Shown here in pieces: positions 150 through 14,035 of a stretch of DNA of 64,000 bases. The DNA comes from Bacteroidota bacterium (GTDB lineage: Bacteria > Bacteroidota > Bacteroidia > Cytophagales > Cyclobacteriaceae), in contig JAFEAM010000034.1 of assembly GCA_018266395.1 (NCBI GenBank), positions 1 to 64,000 of the forward strand. Direction: 5' to 3'. A program made the position numbers and the translations under genes. A model generated the notes under the pieces. The model made no database searches and was not told the DNA's origin. It saw only the letters and a program-made list of their open reading frames with translations. Every line of letters begins with the position of its first letter. The stretch's first letter is position 1.

Positions 150-2141
150 CTATTTCCAAAACGCAAATCCATACGACTCATACATGGCCTTTGGATCATA
201 CAGGTTGCCATCCTTGACAGTGAGAATCACCTTGCGGATGTCAGAAATATTGGCAACGGGATTGCCTTCGATCAGAACCAGATTGGCCTTCTTGCCCACT
301 TCAACTGAACCAAAGTCCTTGTCCTTCCCTGCCACCTGTGCAGAGGTGAGCGTGGCCCGCTTCAGCACTTCTGCGTTGGGAATAGAAGCGCCGGAGTAGA
401 TCTCCAGTTCCCGTTGAAGCGTAAAGCCTGCCATTCCATCGGTGCCCGGCACATAGGTGACACCGGCTTTGTGGAGATTCAGGAGCATGGTCTTCATCAC
501 CGCGAAAGAACGGTTATAGTCGGCTTCGTGACCTTTCATGGTAGGAAGCCCTCCCTGGTACAAACCTCTTTTGAAATCGGCGGGGAACATATTCTGCACC
601 TGATCATATCCGGGCGCTATCTTACCGGGAACGTGAGTGAACATGCTTTCAAATACCGCCATGGTTGGGTCGATCACAGTCTGCCTCGATTTCAGTTGAG
701 CGATGAATTCCTTTGCCGCCGGGCCATCAGGGTTAATGTTCCTGGCGCGCTCGGCCACCTTGACAAAACGTCCCATGGAACGGGTGTCAATGCTGTCGCC
801 CATGAAATTGAGCATGATCATGTTCATGTGAATAATCTGATCATAACCATCGTTCACAGCCCTTGAAGCGGACATCCCGGAAGGAATATGACCGCACACT
901 TTCAGCCCGCGCTTGTGTGCCTCTTCTGCAAGCGGCTTCACCCAATCCACCGGGATGGAACTGTAAAGCTTGACCTGCTGATATCCACGATCAGCATAGA
1001 AATTCACAGCAGCTTTACCCTCGTCCAGCGTGGTAACGAGCTTGCCTGTAGGACCGGAGTAAGGCCCGGCGAAATCGATGAAACCCGACATGATGCTGAT
1101 GTCAGGGCCGATCAACTCACCGGCATCCACTCGCTTCTTGATGTTTGGAAGGTCGAGACTGTTGCCCATGTCCTTCACATTGGTCACACCCGCAGCCAGA
1201 TGATAAAGTCCGTCAGCGCGGTTGTAGTGAACGTGGTTATCCCACAATCCGGGCAGCAATACCTTTCCCTTGCCGTCAATCACCCTTGCTCCTGCCGGTG
1301 CTTTTACTTTCTTTGATTTCCCCACCTGGGTAATTCTGTCTTTATCAATGATCACGGTCTGGTCTGCCATCAGCTTGCCGGTAACAGAATTGAATACACT
1401 GACTCCGGTAATAGCCACAGGTACACCAGGCTTCTGCATTTGCTTCAGCGCCTGTACTTCGAAATAGTCTTCATCCACTTCATCCTGGAGCTTGCGGAGT
1501 TCAGGAACAAGAAATTCATATCCGAGTTTGATGGTCGACATCCATCCGCTGATGGTGGCAAAGAACTCATGCTTGGGTGTCACCCACACATAATCTGGCG
1601 GACCTCCTGAACCGGATACTGCGAACAATTCCAGCTCTTCTGGAAAACCATTCACTCTGGCAGTGTGGCTTTTCATATGTACAATCTTCAGTTTCCCTGC
1701 CGGCAACATATCCACCTCCAGGATGCGGTGATGCATCAGCAGCTTAAAGGCCCATTCGATTTCGCCGGGAGCGCCGTTCATGGCAGAGTAGATGACCGGA
1801 CCTGAAACCGCCTTCTGTCCTTCCTCAATCTGATTCTTCCATGAGGCCGTCCCATTGGTTATCTGGAAGTTTTCTTCAACGGCTCCCTTGAAATAATCAA
1901 CGCCGGTGGCCTTGCGTGCCAGCAGCTGATGGTTGTCCATGGTGAGGTCAATGCGAAGTTTGGGACCCCGGCCCCGGTCGTTGTATTCATAGTAATAGGA
2001 CACCTTGCCGTCTCCGGAAGACCACATCAGTTGCTTGCCCGCGATCTTGTCGGGTGTGAGAATCGTGTACCGGGTTGTATCTACCGCGGCATAACCGGCA
2101 GAAATCAATAATGAAAAGATCAGGGAGAGGAACGACTTCAT
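150..2141 (-). CDS. Secreted amidohydrolase-family metallohydrolase
   Basis: Predicted exported hydrolase of 663 residues with an N-terminal signal peptide (hydrophobic residues 4-18). The second half is an amidohydrolase (imidazolonepropionase/dihydroorotase-like) TIM barrel: the strand leading to the metal site reads LPGLWDNHVH with H303 and H305, and later come a GHIPSG stretch and a C-terminal TDG motif plus the usual small beta-sandwich closing segment (KKANLVLIEGNP). The first ~240 residues are an extra N-terminal region of unknown role that I do not recognise. The gene is monocistronic in appearance and divergent from the deformylase gene, with 84 bp between the starts. The substrate cannot be told; dipeptidase or lactonase-like activity on cyclic amides is a family-level guess. 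Confidence 0.85.
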   Translation of the reverse strand: MKSFLSLIFSLLISAGYAAVDTTRYTILTPDKIAGKQLMWSSGDGKVSYYYEYNDRGRGPKLRIDLTMDNHQLLARKATGVDYFKGAVEENFQITNGTASWKNQIEEGQKAVSGPVIYSAMNGAPGEIEWAFKLLMHHRILEVDMLPAGKLKIVHMKSHTARVNGFPEELELFAVSGSGGPPDYVWVTPKHEFFATISGWMSTIKLGYEFLVPELRKLQDEVDEDYFEVQALKQMQKPGVPVAITGVSVFNSVTGKLMADQTVIIDKDRITQVGKSKKVKAPAGARVIDGKGKVLLPGLWDNHVHYNRADGLYHLAAGVTNVKDMGNSLDLPNIKKRVDAGELIGPDISIMSGFIDFAGPYSGPTGKLVTTLDEGKAAVNFYADRGYQQVKLYSSIPVDWVKPLAEEAHKRGLKVCGHIPSGMSASRAVNDGYDQIIHMNMIMLNFMGDSIDTRSMGRFVKVAERARNINPDGPAAKEFIAQLKSRQTVIDPTMAVFESMFTHVPGKIAPGYDQVQNMFPADFKRGLYQGGLPTMKGHEADYNRSFAVMKTMLLNLHKAGVTYVPGTDGMAGFTLQRELEIYSGASIPNAEVLKRATLTSAQVAGKDKDFGSVEVGKKANLVLIEGNPVANISDIRKVILTVKDGNLYDPKAMYESYGFAFWK

Positions 2142-2225
2142 GGGGGTTGGGTTTGAAAACAGAATATTTGTTTCTTTAGGTGTTAGTAAAGGTAGCAGAT
2201 TCAGGTATTTAAATCAGTTGGAAAT

Positions 2226-2708
2226 ATGGGAAAACTGGAGATGATCCTTCCATTGGGAAATCCGAAACTCTATGAAGTCTCTTCGCTTGTGAAAGAGGAA
2301 GAAGTACCCGGGCTCATGCCTGCGGTGAAAGACCTTCATGATATCCTTTTCGAATTCAGGGCGAAGTATAATGCCGGGCGTGCAATTGCGGCCCCGCAGA
2401 TCGGCGTCATGAAGCGATTGATTTATATGAACATTGAAAGGCCGGTCGTGATCTTCAATCCGGTCCTTACTGAGATGAGTGCAGAGAAATTCGAACTGTG
2501 GGACGACTGCATGTGCTTCCCTAACCTGCTGGTGCGGCTGGAAAGGCATAAGTCGTTGCGTCTCACCTTCCGCGATGAAAATTGGAAAGAGCATTCCTGG
2601 CTGCTGAGTGACGCCCTCGCAGAACTCATCCAACATGAATACGATCACCTGGATGGCATCCTCGCCACCCAGCGCGCCATCGACAATAAGTCGTTTAAAT
2701 GGCGGTAG
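2226..2708 (+). CDS. def: Divergent peptide deformylase-like protein
   Basis: 160 residues, the usual peptide deformylase length. Peptide deformylase removes the N-formyl group from nascent proteins using an Fe/Zn ion held by one Cys and two His. All three motifs can be located: motif 1 as GRAIAAPQ (residues 51-58), motif 2 as DDCMCF with the ligand Cys at 95, and motif 3 as QHEYDHLDG with H137, E138 and H141. Motif 2 normally reads EGCLS, so the residues around the ligand Cys are atypical and a second Cys (C97) is added. The N-terminus also departs from housekeeping forms. This may be an accessory deformylase paralogue rather than the essential copy. It ends tail-to-tail with the next gene, overlapping by 14 bp. 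Confidence 0.8.
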   Translation: MGKLEMILPLGNPKLYEVSSLVKEEEVPGLMPAVKDLHDILFEFRAKYNAGRAIAAPQIGVMKRLIYMNIERPVVIFNPVLTEMSAEKFELWDDCMCFPNLLVRLERHKSLRLTFRDENWKEHSWLLSDALAELIQHEYDHLDGILATQRAIDNKSFKWR

Positions 2709-3138
2709 GCAGAGAGAAGAATCCGCGATGACTCATCGCGATGGCCATGAGGATGATGATCAAGGCAATAAGATTGAAGATGAACATCCGCTTGTGACGG
2801 GCTGTATCGTCAGTCATTTTCTTGGATGTAATCCGCGCCAGGGTGATGAACGTGATGCTGATCAGCATCATCACAATGTGCTCCGTAGTCCAGTAACGCA
2901 GGTTGGCGTCTTTCATGGCGGCACCGCTGAATTGTACATGCGGACTTACAAAATAAAGTATCAACCCTACGAGCAGTTGGGTGTGCGTAAGGGAAAACAA
3001 CAGCATACCGGCTATGCCATCCATCCGGCCATAGGGCTTCTTGCCCTGCCATCCCATGTACGCCATAGCGATAACCAGGATCAACAGCACCAGTACAAAA
3101 TAGCGAAGGGTGGAATGGGTAAGCAGGAGATGATACAT
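2695..3138 (-). CDS. Small four-helix membrane protein, cytochrome b561-like topology
   Basis: 147 residues. I chose the start at 3138 because it begins MYHLLLTHS directly before the first hydrophobic helix; a longer in-frame extension to 3243 is charged and unlike a protein N-terminus. Four membrane segments are visible at about 8-27, 38-60, 82-102 and 118-136. His residues sit near the helix ends (HSTLRY, LTHTQL, TTEHIV, RHKRMF), which resembles Bacteroidota proteins annotated as cytochrome b561-like or as DUF membrane proteins. Function is unknown. The gene is convergent with the deformylase gene. Confidence 0.7.
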   Translation of the reverse strand: MYHLLLTHSTLRYFVLVLLILVIAMAYMGWQGKKPYGRMDGIAGMLLFSLTHTQLLVGLILYFVSPHVQFSGAAMKDANLRYWTTEHIVMMLISITFITLARITSKKMTDDTARHKRMFIFNLIALIIILMAIAMSHRGFFSLPTAI

Positions 3139-3269
3139 GACTTGTTTGGTTTGGGGGCGTAAAAATAGGAAGGAAAGGGTTGGGGTACAACCTGCATTGA
3201 CGTTCCGCCCACAGCCAAGTCCTTGATCAATCTCCCGGGCCAATGTACCTTACTGGAAATTCCAAAGAC

Positions 3270-5699
3270 ATGAAAAAAGGATTGTGGATTTTGCTGCTGC
3301 TGTTTGTTTTCAACGCTCAGGCTCAGGACAATCAGGGCTACCGCCGCCCACCGGAAGAAATAGCCAAACTGGTGGAGGCTCCCCTCACACCGGCAGTGAT
3401 ATTCTCGCCGGATAAATCCGTCATGGTGCTGCTCGACAGGTCCGACTATCCGTCGATAGAAGAACTCTCCAGACCGGAGCTGCGCATCGCAGGTCTCCGG
3501 ATCAATCCGGAAAACTTTGGTCCGAGTCGCGGCAATTATTTTATCGGACTGAAAACCCGGAACATGAAAGACGGCAAGGAGAGCACCATCAGCGGACTGC
3601 CATCGCCGCTTCAGGTCAGCAATTTCAGCTTCTCACCCGACAGCAAGAAGGCTGCTTTCCTTCAAACGTACACCGATCATATTGAATTGTGGGTGGTCGA
3701 CTTCTCCAATAATACCGCCCGTGCGCTCAGCAAAAGAAAGATCAATGCAACGTTGTCCAATCCTGTTCAATGGATGAGCAATTCCAGCCAGTTGATCTTC
3801 CTGGCAGCTGCCACGGAAGGCAAGAACCTCCCCGTGAAGACCCGCGTGCCGGAAGGTCCTGTGGTGGAAGAGAACCTGGGAAAGAAGGCGCCATCCAGAA
3901 CCTATCAGGATTTGCTGAAGAATCCTTACGATGAAGCGCAGTTCGACTACTACTGTACTTCACAGCTCGTGCTGGCCTCACTTGACGGCAGCGAAAAAAC
4001 GCTGGGCACCCCGGCGGTGTTCAACTCTGTCAACTCCAGCCCGGATGGCACACTCATCCTCACACGTAATGTGCATCGCCCTTACTCCTACCTTGTGCCG
4101 GCCTTTCTTTTTCCACAGTCAGTGGCCGTGATCAACTCCGACGGCAATGTCGTGAAGAAGGTTGCTGAAATTCCATTGGGCGACAACATCCCGGTAGGGT
4201 TCAACGCCACCATCAAAGGTCCGCGCAATCATAACTGGCGCAACGATCAACCTGCAACTTTATATTGGGTGGAGGCGCAGGATGAAGGAGATCCCAAGGT
4301 AAAAGCAGAAGTAAGAGATAAAGTGTTTGCATGGACTGCTCCTTTCAGTGGACAACCTGCCGAGCTTGCAGCTCTTCCCCTCCGTTACGGCGGCATCAGC
4401 TGGGGCAATGAAAAGACGGCGTGGATATATGAATCATGGTGGTCAGACCGCAAGACTCGCACCTGCCAGTTTGATCCTTCCAATCCCGCCAAAAAGAAGA
4501 TCTTGTCCGACCGCTCTTATGAAGATACCTACACCGATCCGGGGGATGTATTTATGACGCCAAACGCATGGGGGCGAATGGTGATGGCCATCTCGACCGA
4601 CAATGCTGTCTATCTCACAGGTGAAGGCGCCTCTCCTGAAGGCGATCGTCCCTTCCTCGACAAGATGGACCTCGGCACAGGCAAGGTTACCCGGCTGTGG
4701 AGAAGCGAAGCACCTAATTACGAATATGTGGTCACCATCACCGATACAAAGAAAGGTTCCTTCATCACGTCACGCGAATCACAGAATGACCCGGCCAATT
4801 ATTTCTCGCGTACCCTGAGTTCCAAGGTGCTGACACAGTTGACCCACTTTCCTCATCCCTATCCGCAGATCAAGGATGTGAAAAAGCAGGTACTGAAATA
4901 CAAGCGTCCAGATGGTGTGGATCTCACTGCTGATCTCTACCTGCCTCCCGGGTACAAGAAAGAAGACGGTCCGTTACCTGCATTCTTCTGGGCCTATCCT
5001 GAAGAATTCAAATCAAAAAATAATGCAGGCCAGGTAAAAGGCTCACCATATACTTTTACGCGCATCAGTTGGGGCAGCCCGATCTATTGGGTTATGCGGG
5101 GCTATGCAGTGCTGGATAATGTCTCCATTCCAATTGTCGGCGAAGGTGACAAAGAACCGAATGACACTTACGTGGATCAGTTGGTGGCGAGTGCAAAAGC
5201 CGCGATCGACTACGCCGCTTCCCTGGGTGTAGTAGATCCCAACCGCATTGGCGTGGGCGGACACAGCTATGGTGCTTTCATGACCGCCAACCTGCTTGCG
5301 CACAGTGGACTCTTCAAGGCAGGAATCGCCAGAAGCGGCGCCTATAACCGAACCCTCACACCTTTCGGTTTCCAGTCGGAAGAGCGCACCTACTGGCAGG
5401 CACCGGAGATTTATTATCAGATGTCGCCTTTCTCCTATGCTGACAAGATCAAAACACCGATCCTGCTGATCCACGGCGAGGCCGATAACAACTCTGGCAC
5501 CTTCCCCATCCAGACAGAACGTTTCTACAATGCCATAAAGGGCCACGGAGGAACTGCGCGCTATGTGCTGCTGCCCTATGAAAGCCATGGCTACCGGGCG
5601 AAGGAGTCCATTATGCACATGTTGTGGGAGATGGACAATATGCTCGAGACCTATGTGAAAGGAAACGGAACCATGAAAGGGAAAATCGAATCTCGCTAG
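3270..5699 (+). CDS. S9 family peptidase, glutamyl endopeptidase (S9D)-like
   Basis: Exported serine peptidase of the prolyl-oligopeptidase family, 809 residues from the ATG at 3270; this start gives a clean signal peptide ending AQAQ, whereas the upstream in-frame ATG at 3243 adds nine polar residues. Residues ~30-560 form the beta-propeller and ~580-809 the alpha/beta hydrolase domain. The catalytic triad is S666 in GGHSYGAF, D739 in HGEADNN and H773 in ESHGYR. The stretch around IARSGAYNRTLTPFGFQ is characteristic of S9D glutamyl endopeptidases, first known from plant chloroplasts, so cleavage after Glu is the likely specificity. It lies 46 bp upstream of the ion-channel pair on the same strand and may share their transcript. 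Confidence 0.92.
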   Translation: MKKGLWILLLLFVFNAQAQDNQGYRRPPEEIAKLVEAPLTPAVIFSPDKSVMVLLDRSDYPSIEELSRPELRIAGLRINPENFGPSRGNYFIGLKTRNMKDGKESTISGLPSPLQVSNFSFSPDSKKAAFLQTYTDHIELWVVDFSNNTARALSKRKINATLSNPVQWMSNSSQLIFLAAATEGKNLPVKTRVPEGPVVEENLGKKAPSRTYQDLLKNPYDEAQFDYYCTSQLVLASLDGSEKTLGTPAVFNSVNSSPDGTLILTRNVHRPYSYLVPAFLFPQSVAVINSDGNVVKKVAEIPLGDNIPVGFNATIKGPRNHNWRNDQPATLYWVEAQDEGDPKVKAEVRDKVFAWTAPFSGQPAELAALPLRYGGISWGNEKTAWIYESWWSDRKTRTCQFDPSNPAKKKILSDRSYEDTYTDPGDVFMTPNAWGRMVMAISTDNAVYLTGEGASPEGDRPFLDKMDLGTGKVTRLWRSEAPNYEYVVTITDTKKGSFITSRESQNDPANYFSRTLSSKVLTQLTHFPHPYPQIKDVKKQVLKYKRPDGVDLTADLYLPPGYKKEDGPLPAFFWAYPEEFKSKNNAGQVKGSPYTFTRISWGSPIYWVMRGYAVLDNVSIPIVGEGDKEPNDTYVDQLVASAKAAIDYAASLGVVDPNRIGVGGHSYGAFMTANLLAHSGLFKAGIARSGAYNRTLTPFGFQSEERTYWQAPEIYYQMSPFSYADKIKTPILLIHGEADNNSGTFPIQTERFYNAIKGHGGTARYVLLPYESHGYRAKESIMHMLWEMDNMLETYVKGNGTMKGKIESR

Positions 5700-5745
5700 G
5701 CAGCAATATGCTGTTTTTAGGTAACTTCACTTCAGAACACCCTTC

Positions 5746-6681
5746 ATGAAAAAAATTCTGTTTGTCCTTTTCTTTGTTTCCGCCGTGGCACAGGCCCAGC
5801 CGGATACCGTGAAAGTCGGCGCTTACGTCATCAGCGTTCACGATATCAACTTTCGCGACAAAGAATATACCATCCGTTACTGGCTTTGGTTCCTGTACAA
5901 GAATCCCGATTTCAATTTCAGCACGCAGTTGGATATTCCCAACGCCAAGGAAATTGACGACCCAGATACAGTTGTGGATTCCGTGAACGGGATGAAGTGG
6001 GTACAGATGAAGATGAAGTGTGTGATGAAGGAGAGTTGGGTGGTACACGACTTTCCATTTGACAAACAACACCTGCGCCTGCGGGTGGAGAATACCGTGT
6101 TCGACAAGAACAAACTCATCTTCGCCGCAGACAAAAGACATTCCACCTTTAACCAGGCAGAGGGTCTCGATGGCTGGAAGCTCACCAACTTCCAGGTTAC
6201 TTCCGACACCACGCGTTACGGCACCGGCTTCGGCGATCCGCGCCCCGGCCGTGACAGCCAGACTTTCTCCACCTTCAAGATCGACATGGACATCGAGCGT
6301 GAGGCCTGGGGATTGTTCCTCAAGATCTTCATCGGCATGTACATTGCCTTCCTGATTGCCTTGGTCAGCTTCGTCTCCCATCCCTGGGAGTTGGAGCCGA
6401 GATTCGGGTTACCCGTGGGTGGTCTGTTCGCCGCAGTCGGTAATAAATACATTATTGACTCACTTCTCCCTGAGTCGCCGGAGTTTAGTTTGGTGGACAC
6501 GCTTCACAGCCTGACGTTCATGGGCATCCTTGCCGTGCTGGCGGTATCGGCGCTCTCCCTGAAGTATTATAACGATGAAAACAAGGCTGCTTGCCTGAAG
6601 GTGAACCGGATCGGTTCCCGTGCGGTAACCATCATCTATGTGGTGTTGAATATCTATTACGTGGCACAGGCTGCCAACTGA
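5746..6681 (+). CDS. Pentameric ligand-gated ion channel (Cys-loop receptor-like), paralogue 1
   Basis: 311 residues: signal peptide (1-18), an extracellular beta-sandwich ligand-binding region (~20-185) and four membrane helices M1 (~187-209), M2 (~219-241), M3 (~248-273) and M4 (~290-308). The hallmark FPFD of this superfamily is present at residues 103-106 (HDFPFDKQ). The M1-M2 turn and pore helix follow the known bacterial channel ELIC in pattern: an ELxxR entry, then a small-residue-rich M2, a LP turn and a T-L/V-D start of M3. No pair of Cys forms a Cys-loop, as in other prokaryotic members. It is followed after a single base by a second copy, so the two are probably translationally coupled. 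Ligand and ion selectivity are unknown. Confidence 0.8.
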   Translation: MKKILFVLFFVSAVAQAQPDTVKVGAYVISVHDINFRDKEYTIRYWLWFLYKNPDFNFSTQLDIPNAKEIDDPDTVVDSVNGMKWVQMKMKCVMKESWVVHDFPFDKQHLRLRVENTVFDKNKLIFAADKRHSTFNQAEGLDGWKLTNFQVTSDTTRYGTGFGDPRPGRDSQTFSTFKIDMDIEREAWGLFLKIFIGMYIAFLIALVSFVSHPWELEPRFGLPVGGLFAAVGNKYIIDSLLPESPEFSLVDTLHSLTFMGILAVLAVSALSLKYYNDENKAACLKVNRIGSRAVTIIYVVLNIYYVAQAAN

Positions 6682-6682
6682 G

Positions 6683-7630
6683 ATGAAACGAATTGCTTTT
6701 ATTCTCGTCCTACTGTTGGCTGCCTCCAGGGCCCTCCCTGCGAAGGAAGTACCTGACACCGTCATCACAGGGGCCTATGTCATCAGCATACACGACATCA
6801 ACTTTCACGACAAGGAATATACAGTACGGTTCTGGCTGTGGTTCATCTACAGCAATCCCAAGTTCGACTTTAGCAAGCAATTGGACATCCCCAATGCGAA
6901 GTCGATAGACCAGCCCGAAATCATCACGGACAGCATTGATGGCAAGGCATGGGTATTAATGAAGATGAAGTGTGTGATGAAGGAGCGCTGGAACGTCGGT
7001 GATTTTCCTTTTGACTCCCAGCATCTTCATGTGCAGATTGAAAATACCCTCTTCGACAAAAGAGCGCTAGTCTTTGTGCCGGACCAGAACGGCAGCCGCA
7101 TTGAAGACGAGATGGCCATCGATGGCTGGACCGTCCGCAACTTCAAAGTTTCTTCTAAACACAATGTTTACGAAACAGCTTTCGGCGATTATCGGGTTCC
7201 ACAGCAATCCGACTTCGCAACATTCAACATCGACCTGGACATTGACCGCAATGCCTGGGGCCTGTTCATGAAGATCTTTATCGGCATGTACATCGCTTTC
7301 CTGATTGCCATCGTCAGCTTCACGCCACATCCATGGGAACTTGAGCCACGGTTCGGGCTGCCTGTCGGCGGACTCTTTGCTGCTGTTGGTAATAAATACA
7401 TCATCGACTCTCTGCTGCCCGAGTCATCCCAGTTCACGCTGGTGGACACCCTTCATACCCTCACGTTTCTTTCGATCTTCGGAGCCCTGGTCGTCTCGGC
7501 TATCGCACTGAAATTGCACGATTGGGGGAGGAAGGAGCAATGCATCCGCGTGAGCAAACGCGGCGCTGCACTGGTGATCGTGGCTTATGTAATTGCGAAT
7601 ATATTCTTCATCTGGCAGGCGTTGCTTTGA
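6683..7630 (+). CDS. Pentameric ligand-gated ion channel (Cys-loop receptor-like), paralogue 2
   Basis: 315 residues with the same layout as the preceding gene: signal peptide (1-20), ligand-binding region (~24-190) with FPFD at 108-111, and four membrane helices. The start ATG lies one base after the upstream stop (TGA-G-ATG), which points to coupled translation in equal amounts. The segment from H216 through the end of M2 (33 residues) is identical to paralogue 1, while the ligand-binding regions differ at many positions. The two may assemble as a heteropentamer or as two receptors with one pore design. Characterised prokaryotic members are homopentamers encoded by single genes, so the tandem arrangement is notable. 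Confidence 0.8.
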   Translation: MKRIAFILVLLLAASRALPAKEVPDTVITGAYVISIHDINFHDKEYTVRFWLWFIYSNPKFDFSKQLDIPNAKSIDQPEIITDSIDGKAWVLMKMKCVMKERWNVGDFPFDSQHLHVQIENTLFDKRALVFVPDQNGSRIEDEMAIDGWTVRNFKVSSKHNVYETAFGDYRVPQQSDFATFNIDLDIDRNAWGLFMKIFIGMYIAFLIAIVSFTPHPWELEPRFGLPVGGLFAAVGNKYIIDSLLPESSQFTLVDTLHTLTFLSIFGALVVSAIALKLHDWGRKEQCIRVSKRGAALVIVAYVIANIFFIWQALL

Positions 7631-7985
7631 AGTGGGGGCGCTTCGCGCAAGAATATTGGGGCGCGCTAAGGCGCAAAGCGCGCAATAAAGATGTGAATAA
7701 TGATTCGTTAGTGATCAGAAAGGTTTCCAGCGGAGCATTTTGGGTGACGTTACAATTGATCTGTTGATTGTCGAGATAAGACACAGACCTCTATCCCAGT
7801 CGAAAACTTATAGGCCGGTGTCCTAACTGACCGTCCCTATTTCCTCATACTTTGCGGACTCCGCGAGCTTTGCGCGAAATAATTCTTGCGGGCTTGCTTC
7901 AACATTCAAAATTGGACATACAAAATTCAACATTCATTACTACCTTCCTCCTTCCGTTTACCCCTTCACATTATCCCTTTTACTA
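7631..7985. repeat. Intergenic region with imperfect inverted-repeat element
   Basis: 355 bp without a gene. Near its left side is a GC-rich block that begins GCGCAAGAATATT (about 7645) and continues GCGCGCTAAGGCGCAAAG; near its right side (about 7850-7895) is TTTGCGGACTCCGCGAG followed by AATAATTCTTGCGG. The two blocks are roughly inverted copies of each other over about 30 bp with several mismatches. I read this as a short non-autonomous repeat, possibly related to the GCGCCTTTGCGTGAAA-type words seen near 21300-21500. No clear promoter for the downstream protease can be assigned. Confidence 0.45.
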
Positions 7986-10900
7986 ATGAAACGATTGATA
8001 CTTCTCGTTATCGCGGGCCTGGTGGCTCCCGGCCTGCAGGCGCAAATCAATGCGAAACTGATACGCTATATGGATGTCTCCGATTCCGAAATCACTTTCG
8101 TCTACGGCGGTGATGTGTGGATCATGCCCAAGACCGGCGGGCAAGCGGTGCAAATCACGCACTCACCCGGTGAAGAGTCATGGCCGAAGTTCTCACCCGA
8201 TGGTACGGAGATCGCGTTCACCGCGAACTACAATGGCAACCCGGATGTGTATGTGATGCCATCCAAAGGCGGTGTGCCGGTGCGGGTGACATACGCATCA
8301 TTCACAGACAGGCTGGTGGACTGGCATCCGGATGGGAAGCGATTACTGTTCGCGTCACCACGCGAGTCAAGCACGGGCCGTACCAGCAACCTCTACCTGG
8401 TGGATAAGAAAGGCGGACTGCCCGTCAAACTTCCCATGCCTTACGGGGAACTGGCGAGCTTCTCCCCTGATGGAAACAAGATCGCCTACATCACAAAGAT
8501 CACAGAGAACTATCCCTTCAAACGCTACCGCGGCGGACTCACATCGGACATTATTGTGTTCGACCTCGCCACCAACAAGGCAGAAAATATCACCAGCAAC
8601 ATGGCCAACGACGGCAAGCCTGCCTGGGCAGGAAACCAGATCTACTTCCTCTCCGATCAGGATGCAGACATGCGCCTTAACGTTTGGGCATATGACACAC
8701 AGGCAAAGACCAGCAAGAAGGTAACTCAATTCAAAGACTTCGATATTACTTACATGTCGGCCGGGCCCAGGGACCTGGTCTTTGAAAACGGCGGCACGCT
8801 CTACCGAATGGACCTCTCTTCCAGCCAATACCAGGAGGTAAAGGTGGATGTGGTAAGTGACTTGTCTACGGAAATTCCCCGTGCAAAAAATGTGGAGAAG
8901 AATATCGTCAATGCAACGGCATCACCAGGCGGTACGCGTCTGGTGATCGAAGCGCGTGGCGAACTGTTTAACGTGCCTGTTAAAGAGGGCTTTGTCACGG
9001 ACATCACGAAGTCTAGTGGTGCCTTCGACCATGACCCCGCCTGGTCGCCCGATGGAAAATCTGTTGCCTACTGGAGCGACAAGTCGGGTGAGTATGAAGT
9101 GTACCTGCAGGATATGACCAAAAGCGACCCCGCCCGCAAGCTGACAAACCGCGGAGCGGGCTTCGGTTACCGCTTGTTTTGGTCACCGGACAACAAATGG
9201 CTGGCCTACTTCAATGAGAAGAATGACATCAACGTGCTGGACGTAACTTCTGGTGCCGGCAGAGTGATCGACAACTACTCCTGGGAAATCGGCCACGGAG
9301 GCCGAAACGGATATAACATGAGCTGGTCGCCCGACAGTAAATGGCTGGCATACGTGAAGGGCGAGGACAACGGCAACGAAGCCATCTTCCTCTACAGCGT
9401 AGCCGACAGCAAATCCAGCAGGGTGACGGGAAGTTTCTATAACAACCACAACCCGGTCTTCAGCAAAGATGGGAAGTACCTTTTCTTCCTCACGGACCGC
9501 GACTTCCATGCTGTGTATAGCAGCCTTGGCGACGGTACCTGGATCTATCCGAACAACGTACGCCTCGCGGCCATCAGCCTCACGGCAGATGCGGCAGACC
9601 TGATGAAACCAAAGAACGACGAGGTGAAAGACGAGAAGGCGGACAAGAAAGAGGGAGACAAAAAAACTGACGAGAAGAAGACCGACGATAAGAGCAAGAA
9701 AGGCAAGGAAGCAGAGCCCGAGAAGAAGCCGGAGGTGGCGGTGAAGATTGACTGGCCCGGCATCGAAAGCCGCACAGTTCTCCTCTCCCCTGACGCCGGT
9801 AACCTGGATAACATCATGGCATTCGAAGGCAAGGTGGTGTATCAGCGCTACCCGCTCGCGGGCGACTTCAAGGCAAAAGGTTCCGACCTGATGGTATACG
9901 ACCTGGAGAAACGCGAGGAGAAGAAGATTATCGGAGGTGTGACGAAGGCACAGCAGACCGCCGACCACAAGTCACTGCTGGTGAAGAGCAACGACAAGTT
10001 TGGCGTCATCAAGGCTGAGGCTGACCAGAAGATCGAGACGCCGGTGCCCACGGTAGACCTGGTGATGAACCTGAACCCGAAGGAAGAATGGCGTGAGATC
10101 TTTAACGACACCTGGCGCCGCTACCGCGATTTCTTTTATGACAAAGACATGCAGAAGGTAGACTGGAATGCGCTGCGCACCCGCTATGGATCACTCATCG
10201 ACTATGCCCGCAGCAGATGGGATGTGAGCAACCTACAGTCCAACCTCCAGGCGGAACTCAGCGCCGGCCACACCTACACTTTTGGCGGCGATGCCGAAGC
10301 GGTGACCCGCATTGAGACAGGCTTCCTCGGCATTGATTGGGAACTCAACAATAATATGTACCGCATCAAGCGCATCGTGCGTCCTGCCGACTACGAGACA
10401 GGCATGCGGTCGCCACTGGACCGGCCGGGTGTAAACGTGCAGCCAGGAGAATATATTCTTGCAGTGAATGGTATTGACATTGACCCAACCAAAGAAGCAT
10501 ATGCTGCCTTCGAAGGGCTTGGCGGCAAGACGGTGGTGCTGAGTGTCAGCAAGACTGGAACAAAGGCTGACGCAAGGAATGTTGTCGTTACCTGCCTTAA
10601 AACCGGTGAAGAACAAGATCTCCGCTATGCAGAGTGGATAGAGAACAACCGAAAGATGGTGGAGAAACTTTCTGGCGGAGCACTGGGATACATATACATG
10701 GCGAACACTGGCGGCCAGGGCCAGCAGGAGTTGGTGCGGATGTTCTATGGACAATTGGAGAAGAAGGGATTCATCATCGACGAGCGCTTCAATGGAGGCG
10801 GGCAGTTGTCGGACCGGTTCCTGGAGTTGTTGAATCGTCCTGTGGTGTATAACCTCTACTGGCGTCATGGCCGTTACACCGGTGCTCCCACCAAGGCCAA

Positions 10901-11303
10901 CCCCGCACCGATGGGCATGGTGATCAACGGCTGGGCCGGCTCAGGCGGTGACGCATTGCCCTGGGCTTTCCGCGAACAGAACGGCGGTCCTATCATTGGC
11001 GAACGTACGCTGGGAATACTGGTCGGTCCCGCGACGGGTCACGAGCTCATCGACGGTGGTGGCATCACCATCCCGGAGGCGCGGTTGTATCACAATTCCG
11101 GCAAGTGGTTCGACGAAGGTGTGGGTACCAAGCCCGACATCGAGGTATGGGACGACCCCACGCTCATGGTGCAGGGCCGCGACCCTCAAATGGAGCGCGC
11201 CGTGGAAGAAGTGATGAAGCTGGTGAATACCAAGCCCTTCAAGCGCACGCCTCCTCCGGCGATGGAGGACAGGACAGCAGGGGGGATTAATGGTAAGAGG
11301 TGA
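7986..11303 (+). CDS. Tricorn-like S41 family protease
   Basis: 1105 residues with a signal peptide (1-18). Residues ~22-540 are TolB/WD-like beta-propeller repeats with recurring SPDG blades, as in the tricorn protease that degrades oligopeptides. Residues ~541-585 are a low-complexity linker very rich in Lys, Glu and Asp. Then come a helical bundle, a PDZ domain (~775-850) and a C-terminal S41 domain. The putative catalytic residues are H762 in LSAGHTYT and S986 in GWAGSGGD, matching the two tricorn positions. It is probably periplasmic and works on peptides released by other proteases. It appears monocistronic, with a 355-bp repeat-bearing region upstream and a convergent permease gene downstream. 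Confidence 0.92.
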   Translation: MKRLILLVIAGLVAPGLQAQINAKLIRYMDVSDSEITFVYGGDVWIMPKTGGQAVQITHSPGEESWPKFSPDGTEIAFTANYNGNPDVYVMPSKGGVPVRVTYASFTDRLVDWHPDGKRLLFASPRESSTGRTSNLYLVDKKGGLPVKLPMPYGELASFSPDGNKIAYITKITENYPFKRYRGGLTSDIIVFDLATNKAENITSNMANDGKPAWAGNQIYFLSDQDADMRLNVWAYDTQAKTSKKVTQFKDFDITYMSAGPRDLVFENGGTLYRMDLSSSQYQEVKVDVVSDLSTEIPRAKNVEKNIVNATASPGGTRLVIEARGELFNVPVKEGFVTDITKSSGAFDHDPAWSPDGKSVAYWSDKSGEYEVYLQDMTKSDPARKLTNRGAGFGYRLFWSPDNKWLAYFNEKNDINVLDVTSGAGRVIDNYSWEIGHGGRNGYNMSWSPDSKWLAYVKGEDNGNEAIFLYSVADSKSSRVTGSFYNNHNPVFSKDGKYLFFLTDRDFHAVYSSLGDGTWIYPNNVRLAAISLTADAADLMKPKNDEVKDEKADKKEGDKKTDEKKTDDKSKKGKEAEPEKKPEVAVKIDWPGIESRTVLLSPDAGNLDNIMAFEGKVVYQRYPLAGDFKAKGSDLMVYDLEKREEKKIIGGVTKAQQTADHKSLLVKSNDKFGVIKAEADQKIETPVPTVDLVMNLNPKEEWREIFNDTWRRYRDFFYDKDMQKVDWNALRTRYGSLIDYARSRWDVSNLQSNLQAELSAGHTYTFGGDAEAVTRIETGFLGIDWELNNNMYRIKRIVRPADYETGMRSPLDRPGVNVQPGEYILAVNGIDIDPTKEAYAAFEGLGGKTVVLSVSKTGTKADARNVVVTCLKTGEEQDLRYAEWIENNRKMVEKLSGGALGYIYMANTGGQGQQELVRMFYGQLEKKGFIIDERFNGGGQLSDRFLELLNRPVVYNLYWRHGRYTGAPTKANPAPMGMVINGWAGSGGDALPWAFREQNGGPIIGERTLGILVGPATGHELIDGGGITIPEARLYHNSGKWFDEGVGTKPDIEVWDDPTLMVQGRDPQMERAVEEVMKLVNTKPFKRTPPPAMEDRTAGGINGKR

Positions 11304-11392
11304 GTGGTGGGTTGGTGAGTGGATGTTCATTCAGCGTATAGACTTCAATCACCAAATCGCCCAATCACCAAATCAATAAATGAGAGTTCACT

Positions 11393-14035
11393 TCACTCCG
11401 TCTTCAAGCTATTTGCCGGGTTGGTTAAGGCTGCTTTGAGGGATTGAAGGCTGACGGTGAGAAGGGTAATGAGCATGGTGCCGAGCGCAGTGTTGACGAA
11501 GATCCACCACGGTAAGTCAGTGCGGTATCCGAATTTCTGAAGCCACGCACCCATGAAGTAGAATGAAAGCGGGATCGTGATCACGAGGGCAATGAGTACC
11601 AGCAGGAGAAAGTCACGGGACAGCATCTGCCACACGCTTATCACCGACGCGCCCATTACTTTTCGAATGCCAATCTCCTTCCTGCGCCGCTCCGCCATGA
11701 AAGAGGATAAGCCGAAGATGCCGAGGCAACTGATGAAGATGGCCAGCGTCGCGAAGGAGCCTGACAGCCGGCCTGCCCGCTCCTCGTCACCGAACTTCCT
11801 CGCATATTCTTCGTCCACGAATTTGAAGTCAAAAGGCGTACTGGGACTGTATTTCCTGTAAATATTCTCCACCGTCGATAGGGTCTGGTGCAATTCCATT
11901 TCTGGGTTAAGACGAAGTAAAGCAACGTTGCCGCCATCCTTGTCGCACAGGCGATATAGGGAAGGACGCACCGGTTCATAGGGTGACTCCACTACAATGT
12001 CGCGGACGACGCCCACGACTTTGTAGTTCCGGCCGTTCCAGGTGATCACTTCTCCTATAGGATCCTTGAAGCCGATGAACTTTGCAGCCGTCTCGTTCAG
12101 GATGAAGGCTGCGGAGTCAGATGGAAAATATTTGGAGAAGTCGCGCCCTGCTACCAGTTGCCACCCCACCGTCTTGCCGTATTCATACGACACGTCGGTA
12201 TTGGGGAATTCCACCGTAAGCGCCGGATCTTTTCCGCGCCAGTCAAAAAAGGAATTGCTGTTCCACACTTCTGTCGGCGGGCTGCCAGACTCCGACATTT
12301 CCACGATGGCATTGGAAGCTTTCAGCTCGTTGCGTACCACATCGAAATTGCTGTGAAGATCGCGCGTTAGCAGCATGTTAATAAGCCCCCCGCGGTCATA
12401 GCCCACAGGCCGGTTCCGTGCAAATTCAATTTGGCGATATACGACCAGCGTGCCGATGATCAATGAGGAAGAGACGGCGAACTGCAGCACGATCAGCACC
12501 TTTCGAGGTAGTGATGCCTGCGCCCCTCCCATGAAGGAGCCCTTCAATACCGTCGCCGGTTGAAACGACGATAGGAAGATGGCTGGATAGCTGCCGGCCA
12601 GCAAGCCTGTAAGGAGACTGAAGCCGATGCTGGCAAGCCAGAAGACCGGTGTAGTCCAGGGCAACTCCAGCTGCTTGTCAGCAACCAGGTTGAACGCTGG
12701 CATCAGCAACTGGACGATCAGCAGCGATAGGACAAGCGCAACCAACGCTAGCACTGTGGATTCGCTGAGGAACTGCGTTACGAGTTGCCCGCGTGCAGAG
12801 CCAATCGACTTACGGATGCCCACTTCCTTCGCCCGCTTCTCAGACCGCGCCGTACTGAGGTTCATGAAGTTGATGCAGGCGAGGGCCAGAACAAAAATGC
12901 CGATGATGCCGAAGAGCCAAACCAGTTCAATCCTTCCCCCTGCTGGCTTCCCATCTCTGAACTCTGAATTAAGATGCCAGCTGCTCATCGGATGGATGAA
13001 AACCTCCGGTCGTGCATTGATGTCCTGTGCGTTCTTCAATTTTTTGATCTTGATGTCTTTGATTTTCGAAGACACCGTGGCGAAATCCGCACCGTCGGCG
13101 AGCTGAACGAATGCCTGAGTGAAATTTCCACTCCATGGGTCTTCCATTTGTTTCAGGAAGGGGTTTCGGATGACAAACAAGTCCCATGGCAAAATGAAAC
13201 TCATTTCTTTGAAACTCGAGTTGCGCGGGAAATCTTCATAAACGCCTGTGACCTTCACTTCCGTCCTGTCAACCTTGATCATCTGGTTCACAGGATCTGC
13301 ATCGCCGAAGAAGACTTTGGCCACAGATGCACTGAGGAGTATAGAGTGTGGTTCTTTCAATCCGTTGCGGTCACCATAGATCATCTTCAATGACAACATC
13401 TCTGTCACACCGGGTTCAATGAAGTTGCCGCGCTTGTAGTATTTCTTGTCACCCACTGCAAGGTTGTGCGCTTCTGTCCAAGTGGACTGCAGCACCTGCT
13501 TGAAGTCACTGCCGAAGCTGTTGCGCAGCTCTTCTCCCATCAACCAGGGTGTGGAGCGGTCCGAAAGCAAAATGCCGTTGACTTTGTTGGTCGTCCAGAC
13601 TTGACCAATAGTCCGGTAGTTTGTGAAGTTGTGATCATAGGTCACTTCGTCGAAAACCCACAGGGCGATGAACAGCGCCACCGTCATACCGGCAGTAAGG
13701 CCTGCAACGTTAATGAAGGCGTAACCCTTGTTGTGCAGCAGGTTACGAGCAGCGATTTTCAGATAGTTGCCGATCATAGCGGGATGGATGAGTGAATATG
13801 AATGGTGGGAATAAGATGATGATTGTTTTCGCCTTTTGATGGCATAGGAAAATATCAGCACCAGTACCTGGCGCCAGTACTTGCGTCTTGCGCGGGAGGC
13901 AGGCATCCGCTTGAGGTTGGCGAAGAACATCTCCTCCATGTCGCCAAGCAGGTCCTCGACGAATGCGCGGCCGCAGAACCATTCGAAGATTCGGTTGGCG
14001 AGTCTTGGAGGCCTGCTGGGTCGATTGCCCTTCAT
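11393..14035 (-). CDS. FtsX/MacB-type ABC transporter permease with N-terminal prefix domain
   Basis: 880 residues from the ATG at 14035, which overlaps the upstream PadR stop as ATGA; a longer in-frame start at 14071 would overlap PadR by 40 bp. The first ~85 residues are the soluble Bacteroidota permease-prefix segment (FEWFCGRAFVEDLLGDMEEMF pattern) ending in a helix. Then come two MacB_PCD/FtsX units, each a periplasmic domain between membrane helices, with the RSEKRAKEVGIRKSIGS and RRKEIGIRKVMGAS signature turns. Such permeases handle peptides, antimicrobial compounds or lipoproteins and need an ATPase that is not encoded here. The gene is convergent with the tricorn protease gene and is probably controlled by the coupled PadR. 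Confidence 0.9.
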   Translation of the reverse strand: MKGNRPSRPPRLANRIFEWFCGRAFVEDLLGDMEEMFFANLKRMPASRARRKYWRQVLVLIFSYAIKRRKQSSSYSHHSYSLIHPAMIGNYLKIAARNLLHNKGYAFINVAGLTAGMTVALFIALWVFDEVTYDHNFTNYRTIGQVWTTNKVNGILLSDRSTPWLMGEELRNSFGSDFKQVLQSTWTEAHNLAVGDKKYYKRGNFIEPGVTEMLSLKMIYGDRNGLKEPHSILLSASVAKVFFGDADPVNQMIKVDRTEVKVTGVYEDFPRNSSFKEMSFILPWDLFVIRNPFLKQMEDPWSGNFTQAFVQLADGADFATVSSKIKDIKIKKLKNAQDINARPEVFIHPMSSWHLNSEFRDGKPAGGRIELVWLFGIIGIFVLALACINFMNLSTARSEKRAKEVGIRKSIGSARGQLVTQFLSESTVLALVALVLSLLIVQLLMPAFNLVADKQLELPWTTPVFWLASIGFSLLTGLLAGSYPAIFLSSFQPATVLKGSFMGGAQASLPRKVLIVLQFAVSSSLIIGTLVVYRQIEFARNRPVGYDRGGLINMLLTRDLHSNFDVVRNELKASNAIVEMSESGSPPTEVWNSNSFFDWRGKDPALTVEFPNTDVSYEYGKTVGWQLVAGRDFSKYFPSDSAAFILNETAAKFIGFKDPIGEVITWNGRNYKVVGVVRDIVVESPYEPVRPSLYRLCDKDGGNVALLRLNPEMELHQTLSTVENIYRKYSPSTPFDFKFVDEEYARKFGDEERAGRLSGSFATLAIFISCLGIFGLSSFMAERRRKEIGIRKVMGASVISVWQMLSRDFLLLVLIALVITIPLSFYFMGAWLQKFGYRTDLPWWIFVNTALGTMLITLLTVSLQSLKAALTNPANSLKTE

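Follow-up and report, generated by a model that had tools for sequence, protein, structure and literature searches.

A conserved pair of old paralogues as a candidate two-subunit pentameric ligand-gated ion channel in Cyclobacteriaceae

Two adjacent genes in a draft genome of the Cyclobacteriaceae, here termed A and B, encode members of the pentameric ligand-gated ion channel (pLGIC) family, an assignment that we regard as close to certain. The two genes are old paralogues that recur side by side in five species of the genus, and the conserved pair is a good candidate for a bacterial channel with two different subunits. The superfamily is already known; the new part is this conserved close pair, together with an unusual pore helix (M2). 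The window analysed here is a stretch of 64,000 nucleotides from contig 27. The draft genome to which it belongs spans 4.43 Mb at 97.6% completeness and encodes four family members: the A/B pair, one at C8 (58% identity to B) and one at C35 (56% identity to B).

Gene layout, family membership and the pore helix

Both open reading frames are found where the initial annotation had placed them, and in the ORF reading of the window the TGA stop codon of A (6679-6681) is followed, after one base, by the ATG of B, which starts at 6683 (Table 1). The FPFD motif ascribed to both proteins occurs in each, and both begin with a hydrophobic stretch that was taken by eye as the signal peptide claimed for them. 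A search for RNA elements in window positions 2000-12000 returned none at gathering thresholds.

Table 1. Positions of the paired channel genes, their main sequence features and the genes upstream of them in the window
Feature	Position	Strand	Remarks
Gene A, pLGIC subunit, 311 aa	5746..6681	+	signal peptide (judged by eye), then a beta-sandwich ligand-binding domain and helices M1-M4
Gene B, pLGIC subunit, 315 aa	6683..7630	+	60% identity to A
A/B junction TGA-G-ATG	6679..6685	+	single base (G 6682) between A stop and B start
A FPFD, Pro loop, residues 103-106	6052..6063	+	
B FPFD, Pro loop, residues 108-111	7004..7015	+	
A pore helix M2, residues 217-240	6394..6465	+	24/24 residues same in B
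B pore helix M2, residues 221-244	7343..7414	+	
A loop C region and beta10 start, residues 159-175	6220..6270	+	4/7 B-specific fixed changes
S9 family peptidase, glutamyl-endopeptidase-like	3243..5699	+	46 bases 5' of A
Divergent 4-TM protein, no assigned function	2695..3138	-	common near channel loci, not channel-specific

The proposed homology to pLGICs was borne out by sequence, profile and fold comparisons alike. In phmmer searches of the PDB, A matched best to 4yeu (E 3.6e-5), a chain listed under the name of an ELIC-type plus proton-gated channel, and to GLIC from 2.6e-4, while B matched GLIC at 8.4e-8; with a 54-row family profile the E values improved to 9.5e-12 for a construct of proton-gated channel/GLRA1 and to 3.3e-11 for GLIC. 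Against the Pfam model Neur_chan_LBD the two proteins scored 23.3 and 24.7 bits, short of its threshold of 26, Neur_chan_memb gave no match in either protein at E up to 1, and the matches to NCBIfam ligand-gated channel models were all under their cut-offs. AlphaFold2 single-chain models, built from input alignments of 54 and 48 chosen rows, have a mean pLDDT of 86.7 for both A and B and pTM values of 0.71 and 0.72. Each model consists of an all-beta N-terminal domain followed by four C-terminal helices, in agreement with the ligand-binding domain and four helices first read from the sequence. When Foldseek was used to ask whether this fold lies outside the pLGICs, GLIC came out on top for both models (B: E 1.2e-20, TM about 0.7; A: E 3.1e-19, TM about 0.77; probability 1.00 each), and the beta-sandwich ligand-binding domain and four helices of the pLGIC fold are thus present in A and B.

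The signature residues of the superfamily were assessed in a family alignment of 96 rows, from which the four distant rows L053, L054, L055 and L056 were excluded and in which L126 and L133 were kept as first pieces. Jaiteh et al. (2016; PMC4795631) describe an [F/Y]PxD motif with a Pro that is absolutely conserved in the superfamily; in the alignment the Pro and Asp of this loop are invariant (96/96 each) and the first position is F in 87 and Y in nine of the 96 rows. The beta9 aromatic residue, W in 71% of the superfamily (PMC4795631), is W in 96/96 rows, and the pre-M1 arginine is likewise found in 96/96. The proline kink at M1 14', present in 77% of the superfamily with Gly in 5% (PMC4795631), is absent, the position being Gly in 95/96 rows with one gap; as some superfamily members lack this Pro and Gly is among the substitutions recorded for it, this is compatible with pLGIC membership. 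The M2-M3 Pro, Arg 0' and Phe 9' each occur in 95/96 rows, giving the Leu or Phe at 9' and the basic residue at 0' typical of the superfamily, and the lone gap row at M2 is L133, a truncated piece. No pair of Cys-loop cysteines of the eukaryotic type surrounds the FPxD motif in A or B; each window protein has two Cys, one before the loop (A residue 92) and one after M3 (A residue 283).

The pore helix is identical in the two proteins and almost invariant in the family, where it reads FGLPVGGLFAAVGNKYIIDS over the 96 rows, compared with VTLVVSTLIAHIAFNILVET in GLIC. Its register was taken from the alignment of the 54-row profile to GLIC, with the -2' Glu placed by extending past a two-residue insertion, and in the prime numbering that we assign to A and B on this basis M2 reads P R(0') F G(2') L P(4') V G(6') G L F(9') A A V G(13') N K Y(16') I I D S(20'). 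Position -2' is acidic (E in 87/96 and D in 8/96 rows) and the Glu at A residue 215 is nearly invariant. By analogy with DeCLIC, in which acidic rings have been described (PMC9897478), these residues suggest that the predicted pore is cation-permeable, with Pro -1' and Arg 0' as a caution. In more distant Bacteroidota members RFGLxVGxxFA is kept and Pro 4' is absent, with GNKY present in several. Two divergent pLGIC genes annotated 'hypothetical protein' were also encountered on plasmids, one on an Azospirillum plasmid (L187:7917-8957) whose M2 has FAAVGNKY and the other on a linear Streptomyces plasmid (L188:3743-4879).

It is very improbable that A and B have the pLGIC fold but are non-conducting periplasmic sensors, a reading that could draw on the unusual M2 with its Gly at 2', 6' and 13' and Pro at 4', on a 40-residue M2-M3 fragment of B without a match to PDB sequences at E up to 10, and on literature searches that gave no recording from this subfamily. 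M2 is, however, the most conserved part of the protein, with a mean conservation over the 96 rows of 0.97 compared with 0.37-0.83 in the other regions counted, which argues for pore function. The near-invariant M2, along with the M2-M3 stretch of B that has no PDB sequence match, represents a second target for study.

Recurrence, ancestry and divergence of the pair

When all 62 genomes of the genus were searched with A as query (E up to 1e-20), a family member was found in 54, 38 of which have a single match. In wider draws, 25 of 196 genomes of the family matched B at 1e-5 and 19 of 296 genomes of the phylum matched the profile at 1e-10. A genome-contig search yielded 150 confirmed relatives, and loci were analysed for the closest 80 of the 150, so that counts out of 80 are biased to near relatives. 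Going by record titles, fifty of these 80 are assigned to Cyclobacteriaceae, Flammeovirgaceae or Cytophagales and 22 only to Bacteroidetes or Bacteroidia, the remainder being five Chryseolinea-type species, two Cytophagaceae and one 'uncultured Chitinophaga'. Viral carriage was considered and rejected, as no relative was encoded in any of the 60 viral-contig stretches with a pattern match.

A-type genes, delimited by at least 73% identity to A (the next best match being 66%), are present in five of the 62 genus genomes: G000 (the window genome), G006, G037, G042 and G539 (contig L066). A B-type gene directly follows A in all five, and no A without an adjoining B was found among the 62 genomes, so that the pairing, once surveyed across genomes, is more than a one-off. 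The A-B gap is 1 base in the window, 2 in G037 and 3 in G042 (the starts in the latter two being inferred GTG codons), -4 in G539, where the genes overlap by ATGA, and 167 in G006, the one pair of the five whose gap counts against the two-subunit proposal. The junction sequence differs among the species, yet in four of the five the genes remain closely spaced. The single-base gap emphasised in the initial annotation is real, but as evidence by itself it is weak, since three of 19 other same-strand neighbour pairs among the window ORFs of 220 aa or more are also spaced at -4 to 3 bases; it is the recurrence of the short gap between the same two paralogues that matters.

The strongest argument for mixing of the two subunits is that A always has B directly behind it (5/5), with near-zero spacing in 4/5, while the strongest arguments against it are the sufficiency of a single gene in most relatives, the occurrence of B in the absence of A and the frequency of short gaps in the window. 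The gap control lowered our estimate for mixed pentamers from an even chance to slightly below one. A and B may instead be co-expressed and yet form separate homopentamers with differing ligands or gating, the operon reflecting shared regulation only, and to this we assign somewhat less than an even chance. The single match that is the rule in the genus (38/54) means that the subunits of the family are presumably able to form homopentamers, and locus L060 keeps B without A; the prevalence of short gaps in the window points the same way, whereas the invariable position of A directly before B and the four junctions spaced at -4 to 3 bases do not.

Locus L060 has a B-clade gene in the same place, with an S9-B interval of 197 bases, no A and one match in the genome. 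L060 is the locus from which the A-less arrangement is known, the contig of L062 ending too early to show the arrangement. Judged by synteny, B holds the place of the gene in single-gene relatives and A is the addition. Among the named species, Chryseolinea serpens DSM 24574 (locus L067) is such a single-gene relative.

Phylogenetic analysis was performed on 100 rows, obtained from 147 ORFs after duplicate removal, with ORFs of less than 280 aa (broken copies and partial genes) dropped beforehand. All five A genes fall into a single clade (support 90, not starred), the B clade comprises seven rows including L060 and L062 (support 98 and 99), and a clade of 15 rows unites A with the C8 and C35 paralogues (support 99). 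A reaches at most 79% identity to another row and B at most 77%, compared with 60% between A and B. Forcing A and B into a single clade gave a tree 42 log units worse (p-AU 0.0014; 94 rows without L126 and L133, row sets taken from the tree). A recent in-place duplication is rejected by the tree and this AU test. The description of the genes as tandem therefore holds for their position and fails for sister copies, since the closest kin of A are paralogues dispersed in the genome; the split between A and B is old.

Several further paralogues were observed in relatives. L121:4447-6942 (G045 C17, SZAS MAG) carries a tandem of two dispersed-type paralogues, approximately 400-500 bases apart depending on the start chosen and not of the A-B type. 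Channel paralogues with an in-frame stop occur in L127 and L133 (G001 C19 and G005 C18) and one split over two frames in L126, which may be decaying copies or assembly errors.

Both A and B are under amino-acid constraint, with a dN/dS of 0.126 between them and within-clade identities over the five species of 0.80 for A and 0.77 for B. Relative to L061 and L006, the window genes show non-synonymous differences of 0.14-0.15 (A) and 0.16-0.18 (B); the synonymous differences are saturated at 0.84-0.90, so that within-clade dN/dS was rejected and raw proportions are given instead. These values bear on the proposal that A is a tolerated extra copy, providing more channel or heading to loss, in a pair without a special role. 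Although paralogues with an in-frame stop exist in two genomes of the genus, A is missing at the L060 locus and the pair is limited to 5/62 genomes, A is no looser than B in either within-clade identity or its non-synonymous differences from the window copy, and the single A+B clade expected of fresh copies is rejected, making this proposal improbable.

In enrichment tests on the 96-row alignment, picked after the sites had been seen and with a B set of seven related sequences, four of the seven B-specific fixed changes fall in residues 159-175, spanning loop C and the start of beta10 (entropy-matched permutation p 0.0022), a count that falls to 3/7 if loop C ends at residue 171, while one of the seven is in the M2-M3 loop (p 0.14, no clear excess). 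The same tests place two of 18 A-specific fixed changes in the M2-M3 loop (p 0.03) and one of 18 in loop C (p 0.81, no excess). The lean of B-specific changes to loop C is suggestive only, as are the other outcomes of these tests. The changes specific to A and those specific to B mostly occupy separate parts of the protein, as in two receptors with different ligands, and this adds to the case for separate homopentamers. A comparison of relaxation on the principal and complementary faces of A and B gave no clear asymmetry in region identities.

Neighbouring genes

The gene upstream of A encodes an S9 peptidase, as had been annotated, closest to chloroplast glutamyl endopeptidase (E 2.4e-226); S9D is the label that we take to denote its group. 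It lies directly 5' of A in the window and in three of the four other pairs, giving the order S9-A-B in four of the five, while the remaining pair, at a contig end, has a different partial gene upstream. From this recurrent order, S9-A-B is probably one operon, with S9 the probable first gene. Among the loci of the closest 80 of the 150 relatives, the S9 family is found in 22 in addition to the window, where it immediately precedes the channel gene, in the same orientation, in 17 and the window, follows it directly in one and lies further downstream in four; it was not found in the examined stretch in 58/80, some of these stretches being shortened by contig ends. A role of the S9 peptidase as supplier of a peptide ligand is speculation.

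The divergently transcribed gene beyond S9 encodes a 4-TM protein, whose family is present in at least 59 of the same 80 loci, a lower bound given that the simple gene caller missed the window copy. A channel-specific partnership was considered for this protein and rejected, the 4-TM family occurring in 160/196 family genomes compared with 25/196 for the channel; being commoner than the channel, it is taken as old shared synteny. Pfam gave no match for the window copy and only sub-threshold matches for one relative. An OmpA/PD40 protein gene adjoins the 4-TM gene in many loci, a place taken in the window by a peptide deformylase gene (2226-2708, + strand). An amidohydrolase-family protein is encoded at 150-2141 (- strand), and its family is found near the locus in 7/81 cases, the window included. 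On the 3' side of B, a Tricorn-type protease with PD40 propeller, PDZ and S41 domains is encoded at 7986-11303, while 34/80 relatives' loci include a D-Tyr-tRNA deacylase gene, mostly directly 3' of the channel gene.

A proposed two-subunit channel and its known relatives

As the best explanation of the locus as a whole we tentatively propose, at just under an even chance, that A and B are two subunits of one pLGIC, produced from an S9-A-B transcript and assembled into mixed pentamers. S9, A and B would be carried on one transcript, and the proximity of the A stop and the B start would couple the translation of the two subunits; from the gene arrangement, co-transcription and coupling are both very likely. 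The subunits would be inserted into the inner membrane, their ligand-binding domains facing the periplasm. Co-assembly into mixed pentamers is the more tentative step and falls a little short of evenly balanced. B would retain the ancestral place, and the added subunit A would alter gating or the recognition of the ligand. The latter would be a small molecule of the periplasm that binds where subunits meet, with loop C taking part, and thereby opens a pore predicted to be cation-permeable via acidic residues at -2' and -4', in which rings of Phe 9' and Tyr 16' would form the gate. A more far-reaching version is unlikely, namely that S9-A-B encodes the first prokaryotic obligate heteropentameric channel, in which A needs B, the site is specialised by loop C of B, the pore has an unusual Gly/Pro-rich M2 and a co-made periplasmic glutamyl endopeptidase produces or destroys the ligand, a small amino-acid or peptide signal.

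GLIC, ELIC and DeCLIC are homopentamers, each encoded by a single gene. GLIC is the closest relative of A and B in sequence, profile and fold comparisons, aligning along most of the chain, and shares the ligand-binding domain and four helices, but the identity is only 16-18% in the Foldseek rows, M1 has the kink Pro in GLIC and Gly in A and B, and the two genes lie side by side, unlike the single gene of GLIC. ELIC belongs to the same superfamily and its chains are among the weaker sequence matches of A, while DeCLIC, also of the same superfamily, differs from A and B by an extra N-terminal domain (PMC9897478). Bacterial members were considered probable homopentamers by Tasneem et al. on the grounds that most genomes have one gene (PMC549065), and according to Jaiteh et al. 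none of the pLGICs of single-celled organisms has a known biological role (PMC4795631). The conserved pair of old paralogues makes the homopentamer assumption for bacteria directly testable, and its recurrent operon partner gives a handle on the biological role of unicellular pLGICs. Literature searches, judged largely by the titles listed, found no report of a prokaryotic heteropentameric pLGIC, and none on a Cys-loop receptor in Chitinophaga or a pLGIC in Bacteroidota.

The animal heteropentameric Cys-loop receptors (nicotinic, GABA-A and glycine) are likewise built from paralogous subunits of the same fold, and the Foldseek matches of the A and B models include chains from heteromeric receptors of the glycine and GABA-A types. 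In contrast to these receptors, A and B are without the Cys-loop cysteines and their mixing is only proposed. If A and B do mix, the arrangement would parallel that of the animal receptors, and the pair could provide a simple system, small and with only two subunits, in which to study how the mixed receptors of animal nerve cells work.

Cytophaga hutchinsonii belongs to the same bacterial order as the window organism. Three pLGIC versions have been described in its one genome (Tasneem et al. 2004; PMC549065), which thus resembles the window genome in having several pLGIC genes. One of the three is simple in architecture, while another, unlike A and B, has MCP-N and Cache domains, and the section on the C. 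hutchinsonii ART-LGICs mentions no adjacent pair (PMC549065). An extended architecture was also seen among the distant relatives, where L056:1381-3450 (- strand) is a 690-aa frame with a weakly pLGIC-like C-terminal part. Its extended N-terminal portion looks, on visual inspection, like a substrate-binding protein, and for other bacteria fusions to PBP-I have been described (Tasneem et al.; PMC549065).
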